Source: Methanosarcina acetivorans C2A
Lineage (GTDB): Archaea > Halobacteriota > Methanosarcinia > Methanosarcinales > Methanosarcinaceae
Length of the DNA: 64,000 nucleotides
Assembly: GCF_000007345.1 (NCBI RefSeq)
Contig: NC_003552.1
Span: 4,898,001 to 4,962,000, forward strand
Direction of reading: 5' to 3'
Of this stretch, positions 29,598-39,663 are shown in pieces; the first letter of the stretch is position 1; every line of letters starts with the position of its first letter. The notes beneath the pieces are model-generated. The model was not told where the DNA came from and ran no database searches. It saw only the letters and a list, made by a program, of their open reading frames with translations. A program made the translations under genes and the position numbers.

Positions 29598-29903
29598 TCA
29601 GGCTTTTTTATTGAAGACCTTTCCGAACCCGAAGCTTATTGCCAGTACTGCAATTGTTCCCACTGCAATCGCCAGGACTTCCCCGCTTTTTCCCATACCT
29701 TCGATTGCATAATCAGGCATCGGAGAACTTACTGCAGGTTCCATTTCTTCAATTTCGGACATTTTAGATTCTTCAACTACCCCTCCAGCCGCACTTTCCA
29801 ACCCGTCAGGGTCGGAGGATGCAAGGAAAGGAGCAAGAACTGAAAGCAAAAGTGCAATTGCAATTCCGGCGTAAAGGAATTTCATATTGGAGTTTCCGCT
29901 CAT
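29598..29903 (-). CDS. PDGLE-domain protein, accessory part of ECF Ni/Co transporter
   Basis: 101 aa. An N-terminal membrane helix is followed by SSDPDGLES, the PDGLE motif of CbiN/NikN-type accessory proteins, then an acidic Met/Glu-rich extracytoplasmic stretch (about residues 45-65) and a second membrane helix. These small proteins are needed with CbiM for metal loading in ECF Ni/Co transporters. Its start overlaps the CbiM stop by four bases. The matching ATPase and T-component genes are not adjacent; they are probably at 33963-35785 or shared with the second system. Confidence 0.85.
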   Translation of the reverse strand: MSGNSNMKFLYAGIAIALLLSVLAPFLASSDPDGLESAAGGVVEESKMSEIEEMEPAVSSPMPDYAIEGMGKSGEVLAIAVGTIAVLAISFGFGKVFNKKA

Positions 29904-30565
29904 GCATGAGCCTCCTTCTTAGATTTTTCAGGTCTTACAGTGAAATTGTCTTCAAGGAGGTCAGGACGGGATTTTGCAATCGCTGTGATTACAACCGCAG
30001 TTATCAGCCCTTCACCGACAAAACCAATTATCAGATGATAGGTGCCCATTGCAATTAGACCCGGAACAAGGGGGAAAGTCCCTGCAATCCACATCTGAAC
30101 TGCGCAAACAATTGACGAGATAAAAAGCCCGAGCCACGCGCCTCCGAAGGCTGCAATGCTTGTGCCTGTACTCTTGCGAAGAGCAACATAGGTATAATAT
30201 CCGACAAACCCGGAAATGATACCCATGTTAAGGATATTTGCACCCATTGTGGTGATTCCGCCATCACCGAAGGCAAAACCCTGTACAAGCAGCACGAGTG
30301 TGAGTACAAGTACACCAGCCCAGGGGCTTCCGAAGACGATGGCAACAAGGGTTGCTCCTACCATGTGTCCACTTGTCCCCATCCCTATAGGAATATTCAT
30401 AGCCTGGATGGCAAAGATCCCTGCTGCAAGGGCGGCAAGAACGGGCACTTTCATTTCGTCAAGATCATTTTTTGCCCACTTCATTGACATTATTATAAAT
30501 GGAAGGGCAATTACCCAATAGACAATTGCTTGGCTTAAAGGCATAAAAGAATCAGGTATATGCAT
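29900..30565 (-). CDS. cbiM: ECF transporter S component CbiM (Ni/Co)
   Basis: 221 aa membrane protein. The N-terminus MHIPDSF is the hallmark: the first residues and His2 fold into the substrate-binding site. GMGTSGHMVGATLVAIVFG is the second metal-site block. Family members bind Ni2+ or Co2+, and the two cannot be told apart by sequence here. It is followed by the PDGLE protein in the same operon. The promoter overlaps an inverted repeat (see 30617-30660). A second CbiM gene lies 8 kb away. Confidence 0.93.
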   Translation of the reverse strand: MHIPDSFMPLSQAIVYWVIALPFIIMSMKWAKNDLDEMKVPVLAALAAGIFAIQAMNIPIGMGTSGHMVGATLVAIVFGSPWAGVLVLTLVLLVQGFAFGDGGITTMGANILNMGIISGFVGYYTYVALRKSTGTSIAAFGGAWLGLFISSIVCAVQMWIAGTFPLVPGLIAMGTYHLIIGFVGEGLITAVVITAIAKSRPDLLEDNFTVRPEKSKKEAHA

Positions 30566-30616
30566 TTTTATATTCCTCTTTTTAAACCTTATTTTTTATA
30601 TTCCCTGTTCTCACTG

Positions 30617-30660
30617 TGAACATTCCAGTTCCCATGTTTTTCAGAATGTTCATATATAAA
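30617..30660 (-). promoter_or_regulatory. Inverted repeat over the cbiM promoter
   Basis: TGAACATTC (30617-30625) and GAATGTTCA (30644-30652) are perfect 9-base arms with an 18-base gap. The right arm abuts a minus-strand TATA box (TTTATATATG). This arrangement would block TBP/TFB when occupied. A nickel- or cobalt-responsive repressor is the natural candidate, but none is encoded nearby. Confidence 0.55.
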
Positions 30661-31000
30661 GAACAAAATACCCAAAAAGTCAAAATTTGTTGAGTGTAAC
30701 CATGTGAATTAGTACCAATTAGAAACCTATTATGCCTGTTCCTAATATGTATTTTTGAGGCATTTTCGGAAGATTTTCTGTACTAATCTTAAATAATTCA
30801 GTATTACATATATACATTTTGGTATTATTTTTTTTGATAATTTTTATATGAAATCTCCTTACATGTCGGCATTTTTATATTTTAGTCAGATTAAGTATCC
30901 TCGGAGCTTCTATCAAATCGAATAGATATTCGTCCAGGAAAAGTTGGTGTTAATCCGCATAAGCCCCATTTTTACTACCTTTTTGAGTTCTGAAGGAATG

Positions 31001-31032
31001 CTTATATAATCATTTAAGTAATATATGTTCAT
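31001..31032 (+). promoter_or_regulatory. Probable promoter of the methyltransferase/NAS transcript
   Basis: TATA box GCTTATATAATC at about 31001-31012 with ATGTTCAT at 31025-31032, the same octamer as at the two cbiM promoters. The leader to the methyltransferase would be about 90 nt. Confidence 0.4.
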
Positions 31033-31119
31033 CAGATTTTAATCTTTGGTAATATTTATTATGAAAAAATTGTGTATTTGTATATTGCAATAGTTTCAGT
31101 ATTATACTGAGGAGTATTT

Positions 31120-31872
31120 ATCGACTGCAAGGAAGTTATTACCAACTACTGGAATTTCAGATCTTCTACTTACACAAACGGAGTAAATGGTTTTGATGAA
31201 GAAGAGCGAACGATCTGGAAACAAACATTTGAAAAATCCCTGGCTTCCGGCAAGCGTTTAAAAGTACTGGATGTGGGTACAGGCACAGGTTTTCTAGCCC
31301 TCCTTTTTGCCGAGATGGGACATGAGGTAACAGGCATAGACCTGTCCGAAGGCATGCTCGAAAAAGCAAAGCATAACGCCGATAACATGGGTATAGAAAT
31401 TGATCTCTTCCATGGGGATGCGGAAAATCTGCCTTTCGAGGATTGCTCTTTTGACCTGGTTGTAAACAAATACCTGCTCTGGGCTCTCGAAGAACCTTCC
31501 CGTGCAGTTTGTGAATGGAAGCGAGTCCTTAAACCGGGAGGCATGATTTTTTCCATAGATGGCAACTGGTTTGACTCTCGCCCAGATAGATATATCAAAA
31601 GAATGCTTTCCGAGCTGGTAGAAAGCTTTGAGAATAAGAAACAATACAACAGGATATTCAAGAATTCCTACGCTCCGATAAGGAATTTTCTTCCCCTCTA
31701 TGAGAAAATAAACCCGGAAAGTATCTCCCTTCTCTTTTCCGAAACCGGACTTGTAAATACTGCAATCAATTCCCTTCTGGAGGTGCAGAAGTTTCAAAGA
31801 AATAAGTACCCGTTTTCACAGAGGCTGCTTGAGAATAACTCCATATTTCTGATATCGGGGCAGAAAATTTAA
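31120..31872 (+). CDS. SAM-dependent methyltransferase without a standard start codon
   Basis: Reading frame of about 250 aa. Motif I is VLDVGTGTGFLALL, followed by VTGIDLSEGMLEKA and the acidic/aromatic block FDLVVNKYLLWALEEP. The homologous N-terminus clearly extends upstream of the first GTG (31273): IDCKEVITNYWNFRSSTYTNG. It begins at an ATC (31120-31122) placed five bases after GAGGAG, directly following an in-frame stop at 31108. So either ATC serves as a rare start or the ATG has been lost by mutation. Position next to metallophore-type genes suggests it may methylate a metallophore or a precursor; this is an inference. Confidence 0.7.
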   Translation: MDCKEVITNYWNFRSSTYTNGVNGFDEEERTIWKQTFEKSLASGKRLKVLDVGTGTGFLALLFAEMGHEVTGIDLSEGMLEKAKHNADNMGIEIDLFHGDAENLPFEDCSFDLVVNKYLLWALEEPSRAVCEWKRVLKPGGMIFSIDGNWFDSRPDRYIKRMLSELVESFENKKQYNRIFKNSYAPIRNFLPLYEKINPESISLLFSETGLVNTAINSLLEVQKFQRNKYPFSQRLLENNSIFLISGQKI

Positions 31873-32202
31873 GGATAAGATTTAAAGTTCAAGAATAAGC
31901 TTTTTTTGTCCCTTCCTATTTTTTAGTTGAATTTTTTCCATAAGATGCCCTGACATTTTTATTTCTTCGCTGTTAACACATTATATTTATTAATTTTCAT
32001 ACAATTTTGACGATATTTACGGCTTAATTTTACATTTCTAATCAGGTTTTTTTTACGTGGTGCAACAAAACTTTTTAACATACATACTTTTCGAAAATTG
32101 TAGAAAGCTTTTTATTAGAATCCAAAAAAATAAACGTTAAATTAAATTTGAATAAATAATTTTAGATGTATAATAAAGGGGAGATAAAGAGGCATAGATC
32201 TC
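31873..32202. other. Intergenic leader of the NAS pair
   Basis: About 330 AT-rich bases, no gene. It may hold a separate promoter for the two nicotianamine-synthase-like genes. No ATGTTCAT motif is present here. Confidence 0.5.
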
Positions 32203-33075
32203 ATGAACAGCTTACTGAACGTTGAAAGCAACTCTTATTCAGCCCTATTCCGGGAATATGAGCCGCAATTATACAACATAAGATCACACATACTGCATTT
32301 TTACGATAATATTAAAGACCGCGATTTAAGCACAATTGCGGAATCAAACCTGGAAGAGCTTTATGAGATATTCTCCGAGCTCGATGAACTGGGGCATCTG
32401 GATGTTGACAGCACGATGTGTGAGTTTGTGCTTCATGACCCGGCAATCAGGGCCTTACTTCCTGCAGTCCATTCCAGTTACAGCAGTTATTTTAGCCTTC
32501 ATGAGATCCAGCTTGCACGAAAAATTCTTAACTATGAAAACCCCTGGGAAGTGCTCGAATCCTTTCCCCTGTATCCGAGATATGAAAATCTGATCAATGT
32601 CCATTTTCAGAATTCTTCCCACGCTAAAGTTCTGGTTTTTATAGGCTGCGGACCTCTTCCTATTACCCTGCTACTATTCAGTAAATTGTACGGCATTCGC
32701 TGCATCGGCATAGACATAGACCCTGAAGCAGTAGCTCTGGCAAAAAGCTGTGTAAAACACTTTGGCCTTGAAAAAGATATCAGTATTATTGAAGGGAATG
32801 AGAATATGCTTTCGGAACTCGAATGGGACGCTGTGCTCGTAGCAGCTCTTGCTGAACCGAAGCCGCGCATTTTCCAGAATCTCCATACAATAATCAAAAA
32901 GAAAAAATCCGAGAATGGTAAGCCTATTTCCGTGTGTTACCGTAACTATACGGGCATGAGGCAGCTGTTCTACTGGCCTGTCCTTCCGGAGCATACCCGG
33001 GGTTTTCGGAAAATAAACGAAATACGCCCTTCCTGCGGAGTAAACAACACCCTGGTCTTCCTGGAGTGTGAATAA
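32203..33075 (+). CDS. Nicotianamine-synthase-like protein 1
   Basis: 290 aa, cytosolic. N-terminal helical domain (1-120), then a Rossmann methyltransferase-like domain with the family motif LVFIGCGPLPITLLL (residues about 144-158) and the preceding FPLYPRYENL. This GxGPLP motif separates nicotianamine synthases from ordinary methyltransferases. The family transfers aminocarboxypropyl groups from SAM to make nicotianamine or related opine-type metal chelators; an archaeal member is known to make a nicotianamine-like product. The glycine before PLP's Cys is GCG instead of GSG. The stop overlaps the start of the next copy, so the two are translated together and may form a heteromer or act in sequence. 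Confidence 0.85.
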   Translation: MNSLLNVESNSYSALFREYEPQLYNIRSHILHFYDNIKDRDLSTIAESNLEELYEIFSELDELGHLDVDSTMCEFVLHDPAIRALLPAVHSSYSSYFSLHEIQLARKILNYENPWEVLESFPLYPRYENLINVHFQNSSHAKVLVFIGCGPLPITLLLFSKLYGIRCIGIDIDPEAVALAKSCVKHFGLEKDISIIEGNENMLSELEWDAVLVAALAEPKPRIFQNLHTIIKKKKSENGKPISVCYRNYTGMRQLFYWPVLPEHTRGFRKINEIRPSCGVNNTLVFLECE

Positions 33076-33889
33076 CATTCAAAAAATAGAGGATGCTTTC
33101 TTAGTTGCCGAGCTCCGGCAGATTTCTGCTGTGGTAAAGGGCCCTGGAGAGGAGGAGATTCTGCAAAGTTCCTCGGGCAAACTGCATGCCCTATTTAAAA
33201 GGCTGGACGAACTCGCAGCCCTGGAAGTAGATGAAAAGTCTATTGATGCAATCCTTAAAAGCCCGACTTTTAATGCTCTGATTGATTCGATTTCCCGTTT
33301 CCGGTTTTTATACAATCTGAAACTTGAAAACGAAAAAGCAAAAAACCTTCTTGAGAGTTCGGATCCATGGGAAACCCTCCGGAATTTTACATATTATCCG
33401 AACTACCTGCAGCTTGCAAGGACCGAATATACAGGTTCCGGCCTAAAACCCGGAGACTGTGTTCTTTTTCTTGGCAGTGGCCCTCTTCCTCTGAGCCTGA
33501 TAGTGCTCTGCCACGAATACGACCTTTTCGGAATCGGGATTGAACAGGACGAAAAAAGGGCAAATCTTTCGAGAGAGGTGATTGCCTGTATCGGGCTTTC
33601 CGAAAGAATCAAAATAATAGAAGGAAATCACTTCAACCTGCCCCTTGGAACCAGATGCGATCTTTATATGGTCGCTGCCCAAGCTGAACCCAAAAAGGAG
33701 GTGTTCGAACACCTGGCAAAAATCCTTCCCGGAGGAACTAAGGTTTCCTACCGCCTCTACGAAAAAGGGCTCCGAAGAATTCTGGACGGAAATTCCCTTT
33801 TCGAGCTGCCTTCAGGTTTTGAAGAATATCTCAGGGTTCAGCCGGAACCTCCAATTAATAATACGGTTGTATTTCTGAAAAGAAGATGA
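33068..33889 (+). CDS. Nicotianamine-synthase-like protein 2
   Basis: 273 aa. Same architecture as its upstream neighbour, with the canonical motif VLFLGSGPLPLSLIVL (residues about 132-147), FTYYPNYLQL before it and IGIEQDEKRANLS after it. The two copies share perhaps a third of residues, so the duplication is old. It starts with GTG inside the last codons of copy 1. It ends 74 bases from the convergent cbiQ gene. A third, degenerate copy at 35822-36096 is closer to this one than to copy 1. The product, by family and context, is probably a nicotianamine-like chelator for Ni2+ or Co2+. Confidence 0.87.
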   Translation: MNNIQKIEDAFLVAELRQISAVVKGPGEEEILQSSSGKLHALFKRLDELAALEVDEKSIDAILKSPTFNALIDSISRFRFLYNLKLENEKAKNLLESSDPWETLRNFTYYPNYLQLARTEYTGSGLKPGDCVLFLGSGPLPLSLIVLCHEYDLFGIGIEQDEKRANLSREVIACIGLSERIKIIEGNHFNLPLGTRCDLYMVAAQAEPKKEVFEHLAKILPGGTKVSYRLYEKGLRRILDGNSLFELPSGFEEYLRVQPEPPINNTVVFLKRR

Positions 33890-33962
33890 AAAACTTCTTG
33901 AGATTTGCAGAAAAGAGGTTCAAAACTATGTAACTCAGTTCTCTTTTCAGTCAACCGATCAT

Positions 33963-34769
33963 TCAGGTAAAAAGATGGGCATATATTATGCAAGTCGCAC
34001 CCAGGAACAGAAAAAAAACATCCGGAGTCCTGATTTTTGTCCTGTAATAAGTTGTTTCGTACCCGCTCCCGTAGCCTCTGCAAAGCATACTGATATAGGT
34101 CCTTTCTCCCTGCTCGTAGGAGCGTATGAAAATTGCGCTAATGCTGTTTCCTATCTGCTCGATGATCCATTTACGTGGGACATCTTTGTTCCATATATTG
34201 AAGAGCCTGGTCTGCTGCGCAATCCGTATTCTTTTGAGGACAGCCCAAAACACAAAGAGATAACGCACCATCATACTCAGGAGCAGAGTAAATTCCCTTG
34301 GGATACCTATTCTTTCTGCTGCTACAACCATATCTCTCAGTCGCGTAGTGGAAGATAGCAAGACGATGGCTGTTATGCAGACCAGAAATTTTGCAAGCAG
34401 TGAGCTCCCGAAGGCGAGTCCCTCATAGGTTATACTTAGCCCAAAAGGCAGATCGAGAGGATAAGGAGTATAAGTTTCCATAAAGGAAGGTCTCAGGAAA
34501 GGCTGGATAAGAGCAATTCCCAGTCCGAAAGGCAAAATCGCAAGAATGCGAAGGAGAAAATATCTTAAATCCAGCCCAGAAGCAAGCACAAGGAGCAGTA
34601 AATAAGCCTCGATTACAAGAAGACGAACCATATTTTTTTCGTGAATCCTTGGCAGGCTTACTACATAAACGATTACAACAAGCGTAAAGAGCAATTTTAC
34701 CCTTGGATCAAGACGATGTATGGGGCTGTTCTTATATGATTCGCGTTCGATATCCGTAAGGGTTACCAT
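33963..34769 (-). CDS. cbiQ: ECF transporter T component CbiQ (copy 1)
   Basis: 268 aa with five to six membrane helices. SPIHRLDPRVKLLFTLVVIV is the characteristic N-terminal block, and the cytoplasmic coupling motifs MVVAAERIGIP and MLCRGYGSGYET (ARG-type helices) contact the ATPase. It couples ATP hydrolysis by CbiO to movement of the S component. It follows CbiO copy 1 by 35 bases. No S component is next to this O-Q pair, so it may serve CbiM at 29900 or share the CbiM at 37909. Confidence 0.92.
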   Translation of the reverse strand: MVTLTDIERESYKNSPIHRLDPRVKLLFTLVVIVYVVSLPRIHEKNMVRLLVIEAYLLLLVLASGLDLRYFLLRILAILPFGLGIALIQPFLRPSFMETYTPYPLDLPFGLSITYEGLAFGSSLLAKFLVCITAIVLLSSTTRLRDMVVAAERIGIPREFTLLLSMMVRYLFVFWAVLKRIRIAQQTRLFNIWNKDVPRKWIIEQIGNSISAIFIRSYEQGERTYISMLCRGYGSGYETTYYRTKIRTPDVFFLFLGATCIIYAHLFT

Positions 34770-34804
34770 TAAACGTTCTCCTGTTTAAAAAATCTTCCCG
34801 GCTT

Positions 34805-35785
34805 TCATCCCATCCTGAACGTTTGAAATCTGGAATCCATTACCCTCAGGATTTCATCCCTTGCCTTTTCGGCTGTTATCTTTATGTTAATATCGACCCC
34901 TTCCTGCTGGAGCATTTCAAATATCTCGGCAATTCTTGGAAGCCTGAGGTGAGCTTTTCTGAGGAGTTCGGGATCGCTAAAAATTTCCTCAGGGATTCCG
35001 TCAGCCTCAAGTTTTCCATGATGGAGGACAAAAACCCTTTCAGCAAAATAGGGGACAACATCCACATCATGGGTAGAAAGAAGCAGGGTAATACCAAGTT
35101 CCTTATTCATTTTCATGATCAATTCAAGAAAGCGAGCAGAACTTAAAGGGTCAAGCCCTGCTGTCGGTTCGTCAAGCACAATGACCTCCGGGCGCATGGC
35201 AAGGATACCTGCGATTGCAACAAGTTTCTTCTGTCCTCCGCTCAGATGGTGTGGGGCTCTCTCTTCAAAACCCTCAAGTCCCACCATCTTCAGGGCTTCC
35301 TTTACCCTCTTTTCTACTTCTTCACTGGATAGACCCATATTGATTGGTCCAAATGCTATATCTTCTTCAACGCTCGGAGCAAGCACCTGATCATCAGGAT
35401 CCTGAAAAACTATCCCTACAGTCTCCCTGCACATCCGGACATTCTTTTTAGTTATCTTTTCTCCTTTTACCAGGACTTCTCCGGAAAGAGGCTTCAGGAT
35501 TCCATTAAGGTGTTTAAAGAGAGTGGACTTTCCTGCTCCGTTAGCTCCAAGGACTGCAACTCTTTCCCCTTTGTATACTTTCAGGTTAATTTCTTCCAGG
35601 GTGTTTGCATCAAGATGTGGATACCTGTGGCAGAGATTTTTAACTTCAAGGATAGGGATGCCACTTCTTTCTACGGCATTGGCTGCCTTTTCCGAGCCTG
35701 GCTCTATACTTCCATGCCGGTCGCTATCCTCTGCCGGAACATCCTGGGCATTTCCGTAGCTTGATGAAAGAGTCGATATGGTCAT
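34805..35785 (-). CDS. cbiO: ECF transporter ATPase CbiO (copy 1)
   Basis: 326 aa ABC ATPase. Walker A GANGAGKST at about residues 79-87, Q-loop VFQDPDDQV, signature LSGGQKKLVAIAG and Walker B VIVLDEPTAGLDP. The first 45 residues (STLSSSYGNAQDVPAEDSDR and onward) are an unusual low-complexity extension before the true ABC start ILEVKNLCHRYP. The C-terminal 60 residues are the CbiO-specific extension. It lies between a degenerate nicotianamine-synthase fragment and cbiQ copy 1. Confidence 0.93.
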   Translation of the reverse strand: MTISTLSSSYGNAQDVPAEDSDRHGSIEPGSEKAANAVERSGIPILEVKNLCHRYPHLDANTLEEINLKVYKGERVAVLGANGAGKSTLFKHLNGILKPLSGEVLVKGEKITKKNVRMCRETVGIVFQDPDDQVLAPSVEEDIAFGPINMGLSSEEVEKRVKEALKMVGLEGFEERAPHHLSGGQKKLVAIAGILAMRPEVIVLDEPTAGLDPLSSARFLELIMKMNKELGITLLLSTHDVDVVPYFAERVFVLHHGKLEADGIPEEIFSDPELLRKAHLRLPRIAEIFEMLQQEGVDINIKITAEKARDEILRVMDSRFQTFRMG

Positions 35786-35821
35786 GTTTGATTACATCCT
35801 GTTAAGGGTAGCTGTTGACTG

Positions 35822-36096
35822 TTATAAAAATCGTGCTACCTTTATATATACGATGGTATTGTTGACAGCTGGTTCAGAGTGGACTCTGTTATATTCTTCA
35901 AACCTTCTGGAGAAATTGGGAGATAATTCCAAAAGAGAATTTCTGTCTAATAACTTTCTGAGCCCTTTTTCATAGGCGCGGTAGGAGTTTTTGGTCCCTG
36001 CAGGCAGTACCTTTGCCAAGTGATGAAATATCTTCGTTTTTGGTCCGGCTTAAGCGGCTATCATGACAATATCACATCCACTTTCAGAGGTAAAAC
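35822..36096 (-). pseudogene. Third nicotianamine-synthase copy, C-terminal remnant
   Basis: Reading the minus strand from the cbiO2 stop gives SESGCDIVMIAA, a TAA stop, then AGPKTKIFHHLAKVLPAGT, and YRAYEKGLRKLLDRNSLLEL to VNNTIVYIKV. This aligns with the end of NAS-like protein 2 (RCDLYMVAAQAEPKKEVFEHL, LAKILPGGTKVSYRLYEKG). One CAA to TAA change accounts for the stop. The N-terminal two thirds, including the GSGPLP motif, are missing. The piece lies on the same strand as the transporter genes, exactly between two cbiO genes. Confidence 0.85.
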
Positions 36097-36927
36097 TCAA
36101 TTTTTATGCTCGTGCGCATGCTCTTTATCATGGGCGTGTAGATGCTCATGCACAAGCTTGCCGTGCATGTGCATGTGTTCATGGATCAGATTTGTGGAAA
36201 GGAGAAGGTTCAGGTCGTTGAGCACCTTTTCTACATCCCCGTCCACCACAATTCTATGATCTTCGCCCATGACTATGGCTCTTTTGCTGATCTGCTCTAC
36301 AAGTTCCAGGTCATGAGTGGCAATAATTATTGTTTTTCCCATGCTTCCCAGTTCCTGTAACAGCTCCGTCAGCCATAACTGGGTTCTCGGATCCAATCCG
36401 GCAGTAGGCTCGTCCAGCAAAAGGACATCAGGATTTGTAGCTAGAACAGTGGCAATGCATAGTTTTTTCTTTTCCCCGCCGCTCAGAGTATGAGGCGATC
36501 GATCTTTAAGCTTTGTCAATTCCATCATCTCCAGGACTTCCAGTACTCTGGTTTTGACTTCTTCAGGGGTTATATTGAGCTGCAGGGGTCCAAAGGCTAC
36601 CTCCTCAAAAACTGTAGGTGAGAAGAGCTGCACATCTGAGTTCTGAAAGAGAAAGCCAACTTTTGTCCGGAAATAGGATCTGAATTCATTATCTTTAATT
36701 GTATCGAAAACCTCTTCGACTATCTTATTATCGAAAGCGTAGAATTCTCCAACTGTAGGATAAATGAGCCCGTCAAGGAGAGATAGCAGAGTCGATTTGC
36801 CGCTTCCGTTTGAGCCAATTATGGATATCTGCTCTCCGGGGTCCACTTTAAAGCTGATATCTTTTAAGACAGTTATCTCTCCTACATATGAATATGATAT
36901 ATTCTTTAAGTCAAAGATTGTTCCCAT
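36097..36927 (-). CDS. cbiO: ECF transporter ATPase CbiO (copy 2) with His-rich tail
   Basis: 276 aa. Walker A GSNGSGKST, Q-loop LFQNSDVQL, signature LSGGEKKKLCIA, Walker B VLLLDEPTAGLDP. The last 30 residues contain ten histidines (HEHMHMHGKLVHEHLHAHD...), which is unusual for CbiO and looks like a cytoplasmic metal-binding or metal-sensing tail. It starts six bases after cbiQ copy 2. The tail resembles in style the separate His-rich protein at 39454. Confidence 0.94.
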   Translation of the reverse strand: MGTIFDLKNISYSYVGEITVLKDISFKVDPGEQISIIGSNGSGKSTLLSLLDGLIYPTVGEFYAFDNKIVEEVFDTIKDNEFRSYFRTKVGFLFQNSDVQLFSPTVFEEVAFGPLQLNITPEEVKTRVLEVLEMMELTKLKDRSPHTLSGGEKKKLCIATVLATNPDVLLLDEPTAGLDPRTQLWLTELLQELGSMGKTIIIATHDLELVEQISKRAIVMGEDHRIVVDGDVEKVLNDLNLLLSTNLIHEHMHMHGKLVHEHLHAHDKEHAHEHKN

Positions 36928-36933
36928 ATCATA

Positions 36934-37869
36934 TCACCTGATGGTGTTCTGTGAGATCAACACCAGGACTGCGCTCAGGGATATTGCGATTGCACCTGCT
37001 ATATAATCTCGCTTATGCATCTTGAACTCCTGCATTGTCTTAAAATCCCCGTTGAAGCCCCTGGATATCATGGCCATATGAACTTTTTCGCTTATATCCA
37101 GAGATCTCATCAGTGTATATCCTATGCGTCCCCCAACCCATTTCTGCTCCTCAAACATGCTTCGAGACTTTATGGTCCTGGCTCTCTTTGCAATGTACAT
37201 ATCGCGGACCAGACTGGTTAGTAAGAAAATATACCTGTAGGTCATACCTAGCGTGAGAACATAGATCTTCGGAACGCCAACACTGCGTACTGACTTAAAG
37301 AGCATTTGCTGAGGTGTGGTAAGAAAGAGCAGAACTATGGCAGAAACACACGTTGCAACACGCATGATAAATATACTTGCTGCATAGACTCCCTGTCTGG
37401 TAATGTATATATTTTCCGGCAACAGAAACGGCCCCATGTGGACACCGGGTCCCAGATATATCAATTGAATAAGTGGATCACCCGGAAAGAAGATGTTGAA
37501 AATCATGGGAAAGACAATGATTGCTGAAAAGATGGGAATGAAGAGCCAGACCCGTTTGATGAAAAACTTGATTTCAATCTTGCTGAGGTATGCAGTTAGT
37601 AATGAAAAAACATAGATAAATATCAGCGCTCTCAGATCCGCTAATAAGGCCGTTGCGAATATCACGGCCATGATGGAAATCAGCTTGACCCTGGGATCCA
37701 GACTCTGAAGCAAACCTTTGCGCCTTGAATAGCTTTCCGTAACAAAAGAAGTCTCTATGAACTCAAAAATTTCTTTAATTGTCCTGCCTATGAAGCTCTT
37801 CTTGCCGTGATAAATAGCAGGGCACTTGCAAAATCCTACATTTACTTCTTTCATCCAGTTCGGGACCAT
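36934..37869 (-). CDS. cbiQ: ECF transporter T component CbiQ (copy 2)
   Basis: 311 aa. Core CbiQ with LLQSLDPRVKLISIMAVIFA and coupling segments MLFKSVRSVGVPKIY and MISRGFNGDFKT. The N-terminus is about 50 residues longer than usual and contains VGFCKCPAIYHGKKS, a CxC that may bind metal. Membrane helices: about five. It is 39 bases after cbiM copy 2 and 6 bases before cbiO copy 2, so one transcript M-Q-O is clear. The start could lie further downstream. Confidence 0.92.
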   Translation of the reverse strand: MVPNWMKEVNVGFCKCPAIYHGKKSFIGRTIKEIFEFIETSFVTESYSRRKGLLQSLDPRVKLISIMAVIFATALLADLRALIFIYVFSLLTAYLSKIEIKFFIKRVWLFIPIFSAIIVFPMIFNIFFPGDPLIQLIYLGPGVHMGPFLLPENIYITRQGVYAASIFIMRVATCVSAIVLLFLTTPQQMLFKSVRSVGVPKIYVLTLGMTYRYIFLLTSLVRDMYIAKRARTIKSRSMFEEQKWVGGRIGYTLMRSLDISEKVHMAMISRGFNGDFKTMQEFKMHKRDYIAGAIAISLSAVLVLISQNTIR

Positions 37870-37908
37870 GGAACCTCCGATAAAAACAAAAAATGAACCA
37901 TTCAGCTG

Positions 37909-38904
37909 TTAGTCCTTGACTATCCTCCTGCCAATGAAGTACAAGATGCCCATGCATAACAGTACCCCTACTATGGCTGCTATGACGTATCCGATAGCCG
38001 GATGGAGACTGGAAAGGCTGTAGTCTAAAAATGGCGCATTCCAGATACCTGAAAGTTTTTCCAGGCCCGGTGGCACAAAGCCAATCCTAGCTTTGAGCTC
38101 TTCTGGCGCCCATTCGCCATATGCAGTGCCTGCCACAAGCAGACCTAAAGGCGTCAGGATTATCAACAATATCAGGCCAACAGTCAAGTTTCTCAAAAGC
38201 TTGCCTTTCTTCGATATTTCTTGAGGCTTAGTTTTTTCTGCATAAAATATGGATGGATCTGCTCTCTGGATATAGGCGAATATCAATGCCGAAACCAATG
38301 CCTCAAGAATACTGAATAGAAATGCATGTTCCAAAAACATCGCTGGAACGGTCACACTCAGTGGATATGGCATATAAAGAGGTAAACCGCTTTCGTTTTT
38401 ATATAAAATAGGCTGTAATCCAAGAACAAGTCCGATCAGTGTAGCTGAGACAGTGATAGCTAACCAGGCCCCGATGGCTATGGCTATTACTCTTCGTGAG
38501 GATTTGATGTCTGTGGATCCGCTAATAAATTTGTAGGTATAGTAACCGATAAAAGGCATAAGAACTGCCATGAAGAAACAGTTTGCAGCATAAGCGGTGA
38601 GCCCCCCATCTCCGAACATCAGCGCTTGCAGCGCCAGGGCTATAGATATGGCTATAACTGCAGCCCACGGCCCTATAACGACGGCAATTACAGTTCCCCC
38701 TACCGCATGGCCACTGCTTCCACCAGGTACAGGTATATTGAACATCATAATTACAAAGGTGAATGCAGACGCTAGAGCAAGCAGTGGAACTCTTCTCGAT
38801 CCAAGATTCCTCATTTTCCTTCCCGCGTAAGCCCAAATCGGAATCATGATGATCCAGAACGAGATAAACGTACTTGGCCCTAAATAACCATCTGGAATAT
38901 GCAT
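37909..38904 (-). CDS. cbiM: CbiM-PDGLE fusion, S component of second Ni/Co transporter
   Basis: 331 aa from the ATG giving MHIPDGYLGP; upstream starts in the long frame are rejected because His must be residue 2 for metal binding. The first 220 residues are CbiM (GGSSGHAVGGTVIAVVIGPW, LMFGDGGLTAY). After about residue 240 an extra part with two membrane helices flanks an extracytoplasmic WAPEELKARIGFVPPGLEKL segment, the PDGLE-type accessory domain fused in one chain. In the first system the same two parts are separate genes. GGGGA precedes the ATG. Confidence 0.93.
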   Translation of the reverse strand: MHIPDGYLGPSTFISFWIIMIPIWAYAGRKMRNLGSRRVPLLALASAFTFVIMMFNIPVPGGSSGHAVGGTVIAVVIGPWAAVIAISIALALQALMFGDGGLTAYAANCFFMAVLMPFIGYYTYKFISGSTDIKSSRRVIAIAIGAWLAITVSATLIGLVLGLQPILYKNESGLPLYMPYPLSVTVPAMFLEHAFLFSILEALVSALIFAYIQRADPSIFYAEKTKPQEISKKGKLLRNLTVGLILLIILTPLGLLVAGTAYGEWAPEELKARIGFVPPGLEKLSGIWNAPFLDYSLSSLHPAIGYVIAAIVGVLLCMGILYFIGRRIVKD

Positions 38905-38954
38905 AAAATCCCCACAGGACGTTAACAATTTATTTTGTGTATAATCATATCTTT

Positions 38955-38975
38955 TCATATAAAAGTAATGTTCAT
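38955..38975 (-). promoter_or_regulatory. Probable promoter of the M-Q-O operon with shared octamer
   Basis: Minus-strand TATA-like TTTTATATG at about 38955-38964, with ATGTTCAT (38968-38975) directly upstream of it. Compare ATGTTCAT at 30646-30653 next to the other cbiM TATA box. Confidence 0.4.
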
Positions 38976-39453
38976 ACATATTTTTTAACAATAATTTTTT
39001 TATAATTGTTATTAATGGTTATATGGTCTACTAATGATCAAATAGACTGCAATCGTAACCTATAAAGTTACTTAAAACTCAGGATAATCGCCTACCTGAA
39101 CTTAAGAGAATATTGCCTATAATCTAACTATTGCCTATAATCTAACTATTGCCTATCAATCTAACAGTGGAGTTCAAATTGGTTTCAGACCCACGATTAA
39201 GATGATTTCTCTTTGGGATTAACTATTGAGATCCACCAAAGCAAAGATTAAGACAGATAAGGAAAGATCTCATTTTTCAGGAAATTCCTCAAATATAATA
39301 AGAATTATTTGTCAATTAGTGTTATTTTATCTAATTTATTGTTAGGAAAGTATTTAATACCTCACAACTATGTAACTATAGCCGAATGAAATCAAAGTTT
39401 TAATAGTTTAGTTGAAAAAGATAATCGTTTGGTTGAAAAGGATAGTGAAAGTT
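38976..39453. other. Divergent intergenic region before the His-rich gene
   Basis: About 480 AT-rich bases with no gene. It includes the 18-bp triple repeat at 39111-39165 and, near 39346-39358, a TATA-like AAGTATTTAATA about 100 bases upstream of the His-rich coding start. Confidence 0.5.
39111..39165. repeat. Three tandem copies of an 18-bp unit
   Basis: TATTGCCTATAATCTAAC occurs at 39111-39128 and 39129-39146 exactly, and with one extra base at 39147-39165. Confidence 0.9.
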
Positions 39454-39663
39454 ATGGAAGAAAAAGAAACGCATATACACATACACAAACCTGAGGAACA
39501 AACACCTGAGGAAGCACACGTACATATTCATTTACATGTGCATGAATACAAACATACACATGAACATGAACATGAAGGGGAGACTCACACACACGAGCAT
39601 CTGCATAGGATCGAACACGAGCATGAGCATGAGCACGGACATGAGCATGAACACAAAGAATAA
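39454..39663 (+). CDS. Small histidine-rich protein, probable Ni/Co buffer
   Basis: 69 aa, of which about 23 are histidine and about 17 glutamate; there is no cysteine. It starts MEEKETHIHIHKPEE and ends in HEH repeats. Histidines alternate with other residues (HxHxHxH), as in metal-storage peptides such as Hpn-type proteins. I chose the ATG at 39454; an upstream in-frame TTG would add 14 basic/hydrophobic residues. It is divergent from a Ni/Co transporter operon whose ATPase also has a His-rich tail. A role in binding cytosolic nickel or cobalt is inferred from composition and context. Confidence 0.75.
   Translation: MEEKETHIHIHKPEEQTPEEAHVHIHLHVHEYKHTHEHEHEGETHTHEHLHRIEHEHEHEHGHEHEHKE

Follow-up and report, generated by a model that had tools for sequence, protein, structure and literature searches.

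Within a 64,000-nucleotide stretch of the Methanosarcina acetivorans C2A genome (NC_003552.1, positions 4,898,001 to 4,962,000; hereafter the window), two tandem genes for nicotianamine synthase (NAS)-like enzymes, nasA and nasB, and a gene for an S-adenosylmethionine (SAM)-dependent methyltransferase, MT, are found among the genes of two energy-coupling factor (ECF) metal transporters (window positions 29598–39663). We hypothesize, with a probability of roughly one half, that this island would produce an intracellular aminocarboxypropyl nickel ligand at the place where nickel enters the cell, buffering the metal and passing it on. The starting points are the gene content, the intact enzymes with conserved catalytic residues, and the recurrent association with cfbA and Ni-type ECF genes; from these we infer the ligand product, its metal, its cytoplasmic role and the hand-over.

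NasA and NasB belong to two distinct NAS clades

Both NAS genes, relatives of the gene for the plant enzyme behind the metal chelator nicotianamine, lie on the plus strand and overlap by 8 bp, with nasA at 32203–33075 and nasB, which has a GTG start, at 33068–33889. NasA and NasB match the PF03059 profile with 69.8 and 104 bits (E-values 3e-19 and 1e-29; Pfam cut-off 27.1) and the structure of MtNAS, the thermonicotianamine synthase of Methanothermobacter thermautotrophicus (3fpe), with E-values of 1e-39 and 3e-34. The catalytic glutamate and tyrosine of MtNAS (E81/Y107) correspond to E101/Y127 in NasA and E87/Y113 in NasB, and both residues are retained among the inspected homologues of the two clades; they are needed for the function of MtNAS and AtNAS1 (PMC10248798; PMC10491745). 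AlphaFold models of NasA and NasB (predicted local distance difference test scores of 86 and 88) each align with MtNAS at Z 30.6, with root-mean-square deviations of 2.3 and 2.5 Å over ~260 residues and 30–32% structural identity. The next structural neighbour is CntL (Z ~22), followed by other SAM enzymes at 16.5 or below.

Phylogenetic analysis separates two NAS clades, one uniting MtNAS with NasA (support 1.0) and the other uniting NasB with single NAS paralogues; the former carries the motif YR.Y-[TS]G and the latter YR.YEKG. By their ratios of nonsynonymous to synonymous substitutions against relatives, nasA (0.21–0.23) and nasB (0.14–0.24) are under purifying selection; the ratio for MT is 0.09–0.17. 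Tandem NasA–NasB pairs were identified in Methanosarcina, in two Methanothrix-family records, in one Tritonobacter record and in many Desulfobacterota. The N termini of bacterial NasA proteins (loci L155, L162, L167, L175 and others; L and G numbers are our labels for loci and genomes) contain a His/Cys motif (MH..., HxH, GCCxxC) that Methanosarcina NasA lacks and that is possibly a metal or cluster site.

The cassette splits an ECF gene set

The genes cbiM1–cbiN1 (30565–29598) and cbiO1–cbiQ1 (35785–33963) constitute one minus-strand ECF set, and the MT–nasA–nasB cassette splits it between cbiMN1 and cbiQO1, in antisense orientation. This set 1 is composed of the S component gene cbiM1 (29900–30565; product beginning MHIPDS; PF01891, 4e-55), cbiN1, encoding a NikN-like subunit with a PDGLE domain (29598–29903; PF13190, 4e-19; above the cut-off of the NCBIfam CbiN equivalog), the T component gene cbiQ1 (33963–34769; TIGR02454, 140 bits, cut-off 111.8) and the ATPase gene cbiO1 (34805–35785; TIGR01166, 243 bits, cut-off 211.8). 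It is adjoined by set 2, likewise on the minus strand, with cbiM2 for a fused NikMN-type S component (37909–38904; PRK07331, 459 bits), cbiQ2 for a T component (36934–37869; TIGR02454, 225 bits, cut-off 111.8) and cbiO2 for an ATPase (36097–36927; PF00005, 1e-31). S, T and ATPase components are thus encoded together in both sets, cbiN being separate in set 1 and fused in set 2. An earlier note on this DNA, made from the letters alone, had listed the tandem NAS genes, the methyltransferase and two CbiM-type ECF loci, all of which are present, but had placed the cassette between the two loci, whereas it lies inside set 1. The named genes are intact, and a chance grouping is excluded because the arrangement recurs in relatives.

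The minus strand carries, at ~35822–36100, the 3' part of a nasB-like gene interrupted by an in-frame stop (60% identical to nasB across 60 residues, E-value 2e-20), a decayed third NAS copy. The remnant resembles several nasB genes to about the same degree, which does not single out the cbiM2-linked type as its source. Another full NAS gene lies at genome position 3649156, with no cbi gene nearby.

Linkage of NAS pairs to ECF genes across genomes

To assess linkage, CbiM or CbiQ was sought within 8 kb of NAS, and only loci whose two flanks each extended to 8 kb or more were counted; the counted loci are not phylogenetically independent, gene calls in relatives were mechanical (longest non-overlapping open reading frames), and many contigs were short. 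Neighbourhood comparison in relatives, which the earlier note had proposed as a check, bore out the association: CbiM or CbiQ lies near 11 of the 12 Methanosarcina NAS pairs, the lone exception (L046) retaining a partial cbiQ, as against none of 17 single NAS paralogues. The same proximity was detected at 6/8 loci of Methanococcoides, Methanolobus and anaerobic methanotrophic archaea (ANME), and at 4/6 loci of Desulfobacterota. Such closeness would rarely arise by chance, because 110 of the family's 112 genomes contain just one to four CbiM copies. The notion that NAS by itself implies nickel transport was rejected, since no cbi gene lies close to the single paralogues.

In most genomes of the genus, the cassette interrupts set 1; in four loci (L050, L051, L052 and L061) it adjoins set 2 instead. 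At the cassette-free site (G081, G094, G096, G092, G079, G103 and G009), cbiOQ and cbiMN are contiguous, with a gap of ~450–600 bp, and partial states were also observed, with MT only in G086 and a nasB remnant in G075. Since the cassette is absent or partial at a constant cbiOQ–cbiMN site, it is an accessory module at a fixed position.

Nickel is the more likely metal

In the representatives tested, the NAS-linked operon of ANME, Methanococcoides and Desulfobacterota typically has the composition CbiM / NikL-like / CbiQ / CbiO, and in archaeal NAS-linked operons a DUF4198 protein precedes. The NikL model is matched by the Desulfobacterota copy with 168.6 bits (cut-off 100), and the ANME-1 copy scores below the cut-off. 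At six ANME loci (L127 and L129–L133, from ANME-1 and ANME-2), NAS is accompanied by CfbA, the sirohydrochlorin nickelochelatase of the F430 pathway, every copy scoring above the curated cut-off; in G272, G302, G346 and G422 this cfbA is an extra genome copy. Among solved structures, cbiM2 matches NikM2 (4m58; TtNikM2), which we take to be a nickel-specific S component, with 195 bits and the cobalt transporter CbiM (5x3x) with 54 bits, which strongly suggests a NikM2-like protein. The third CbiM of the genome (L212) is of the cobalt type (221 versus 64 bits) and has no adjoining NAS. The earlier note had tied a NAS-type chelator to the uptake of nickel or cobalt; the link itself recurs in several archaeal lineages and in Desulfobacterota, and of the two metals nickel seems more likely than cobalt because of the NikL/DUF4198 operons, the cfbA linkage, the NikM2-like cbiM2 and the location of the cobalt-type CbiM elsewhere. 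A 4229-aa open frame (G000:C1:4282903-4294311) contains several repeats weakly similar to CfbA/CbiX.

His-rich proteins and bacterial neighbours

Two His-rich products described earlier were confirmed, namely the C-terminal tail of CbiO2, whose last 40 residues include 11 His, and a 69-aa protein encoded on the plus strand (39454–39663), of which 23 residues are His and which has no family match. NAS-linked ECF ATPases often have His-rich tails, and the CbiO2-type tail recurs; no standalone His-rich protein was seen beside other NAS loci. The ATPase tails would fit local nickel handling. In two Desulfobacterota loci, the NAS pair and MT are followed by a nickel transport protein of the NicO family, one loop of which is extremely rich in His (L155:9244-10194 and L159:10744-11694). 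An alanine-racemase-fold pyridoxal phosphate protein follows the NAS pair in 12 of 23 Desulfobacterota loci (L161, L167, L170, L185, L186 and others), and the two copies tested were assigned to Ala_racemase_N/D-ser_dehydrat (PF01168/PF14031). As a lead, this protein could supply an unusual amino-acid starter for NAS.

The methyltransferase and a conserved 41-bp element

MT (31120–31872, plus strand) encodes a class I SAM methyltransferase (PF08241, 1e-26). Its start is an ATC codon at 31120, shortly after a GGAG-type ribosome site, and a caller restricted to ATG/GTG/TTG would place it at 31273. In this genome, the stretch from the preceding in-frame stop to the conserved MT N terminus contains no ATG, GTG or TTG, a conserved purine-rich ribosome site precedes the start across relatives, and of the homologues examined (L086–L095, L055 and L052) eight start with ATA and four with ATG. 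By this comparison, MT starts at a conserved rare codon that standard gene callers miss. Folding of the MT leader was no better than that of shuffled sequences (z 0.71), giving no sign of a structured leader.

MT is a member of a large Methanosarcinaceae family, with 15 matches at 1e-20 in this genome. By gene layout, many relatives lie in Opp/Nik-type ATP-binding cassette (ABC) transporter operons (L194, L196, L199–L204 and L207–L209; the identity of the substrate-binding protein, SBP, was checked in L200 and L201), and one cluster (L198) adjoins a FecCD-type transporter. A paralogue at genome position 5172034 (63% identical) has a neighbouring SBP that matches the NikA model best (326 bits) and also matches CntA, at 153 bits. 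Several genomes with MT relatives in ABC operons have no NAS match, and a constant partnership of MT with NAS was therefore rejected. MT thus accompanies metal-type transport more generally. Methylation of the NAS product, which had been suggested earlier, is doubtful, because genomes devoid of NAS have close relatives of MT within Nik/Opp-type ABC operons.

Between cbiM1 and MT lies a highly conserved 41-bp element (30801–30841). Several Methanosarcina species share it almost unchanged upstream of cbiM1, and it also precedes cbiM1 where the NAS/MT cassette is missing (88% over 42 bp). The block is likely to be a control element of cbiM1. A genome-wide search for a regulon, with the first 27 bases as query, returned a single site at up to three mismatches, and an Rfam scan of the window matched no family, hence no known riboswitch or RNA control.

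Proposed mechanism and alternatives

ECF importers of the linked type carry free ions, and methanogens and anaerobic methanotrophs have a high nickel demand for F430. According to our hypothesis, the ECF transporters (NikM/CbiM-type S component, CbiQ and CbiO) would import free Ni2+, and NasA and NasB, as paralogous aminocarboxypropyl transferases, would use SAM and an amino-acid starter to build a nicotianamine- or thermonicotianamine-like ligand. This ligand, mainly cytoplasmic, would bind the arriving Ni2+, prevent misloading, and present the metal to sinks such as CfbA, for F430 synthesis, and nickel enzymes, while the His-rich tails may retain nickel at the transporter. The earlier note had allowed for either capture or buffering of the metal; buffering fits better, because the linked importers are of a free-ion type and the NAS neighbourhood has no recurring gene for export or for an opine dehydrogenase, the PF10100 search for the latter having matched no control genome either. 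CfbA is reported to be faster in vitro with Co2+ than with Ni2+ (PMC11301274), so that selective nickel delivery would have a use.

Several points weigh against this hypothesis. The substrate of the NAS enzymes cannot be read from sequence, and the cfbA of this genome lies outside the window, at 4475326. The S component of the set that hosts the cassette, cbiM1, appears only weakly nearer to NikM2 (4m58, 88 bits) than to CbiM (5x3x, 64 bits). The cassette is missing from at least seven Methanosarcinaceae genomes, by which the ligand would be accessory and not essential for F430. ANME-1 MT/NAS loci also carry an adjoining cobyric acid synthase, which makes Co2+ possible. A ligand with the same role but for cobalt, supplying corrinoid synthesis, could draw further on the cobalt names of the transporter families in databases and on the very large corrinoid proteome of Methanosarcina (PMC2667541). 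We nevertheless consider it improbable, as the genome encodes its cobalt-type CbiMNQO elsewhere, without NAS, and both the NikL/DUF4198 operons and cfbA speak for nickel.

The main rival is a secreted nickelophore, in which the NAS product, perhaps methylated, would be exported, scavenge nickel or cobalt, and re-enter by NikA/CntA-like ABC transporters encoded elsewhere. This is the mode of staphylopine-type systems, and both the close MT relatives within SBP_bac_5/NikA-like ABC operons and the NikA/CntA-matching SBP beside the MT paralogue agree with it. It is nonetheless unlikely: no exporter recurs in the conserved NAS neighbourhood, the linked importers are ECF carriers of free ions, the MT–ABC operons are present in NAS-free genomes, and the PF10100 opine dehydrogenase was unmatched in 11 NAS genomes, although control genomes were unmatched as well. 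Detoxification or storage, with the ligand and His-rich proteins sequestering excess nickel or cobalt after uptake, would account for the His-rich tails, the 69-aa protein and the NicO-family protein of the two Desulfobacterota loci; linkage to importers and not to efflux pumps, and the usual service of high-affinity import in scarcity, make it more improbable still. There is very little to be said for NAS-like proteins that transfer aminocarboxypropyl to a metal-unrelated target and merely travel with the operon: single paralogues do sit away from metal transporters, but the pairs accompany two ECF types in Methanosarcina, and in several other lineages they accompany Ni-type ECF genes.

Relation to known systems and implications

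MtNAS (3FPE) shares its fold and catalytic residues with NasA and NasB and its clade with NasA; the present system differs in having two paralogues of different clades, encoded by overlapping genes beside Ni-type ECF transporters. Staphylopine-type systems (CntL-CntM-CntABCDF) share a NAS-like SAM aminocarboxypropyl transferase but use a chelate ABC importer, whereas here an ECF ion importer is linked to two NAS enzymes, with no CntM match and no adjoining exporter; the NAS proteins score 42.3 and 29.7 bits against the CntL equivalog NF033601, far from its cut-off of 350. All components of the nickel ECF systems NikMNQO and NikKMLQO (TtNikM2, 4M58) are present, and cbiM2 is NikM2-like; what is added is a cassette for ligand synthesis, which in Methanosarcina interrupts the operon on the opposite strand. 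The link to CfbA is seen in ANME and not within the window. The individual families are known, and, as anticipated earlier, we found no description of a two-enzyme NAS pair in linkage with Ni-type ECF operons and cfbA as far as the literature searched extends; most subscription papers were outside it, and reviews on non-plant nicotianamine may touch part of it.

More tentatively, NasA and NasB might together produce a new small molecule that carries nickel from the ECF importer to CfbA and to nickel enzymes, acting as a metabolite-based chaperone common to methanogens, anaerobic methanotrophs and sulfate reducers. A ligand-making pair beside nickel importers, and in ANME beside a CfbA copy, offers a testable answer to how nickel is chosen over cobalt. 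If true, the hypothesis suggests a physiological role for archaeal thermonicotianamine-like molecules, and with the NAS pair recurring in Desulfobacterota the system would span two domains.

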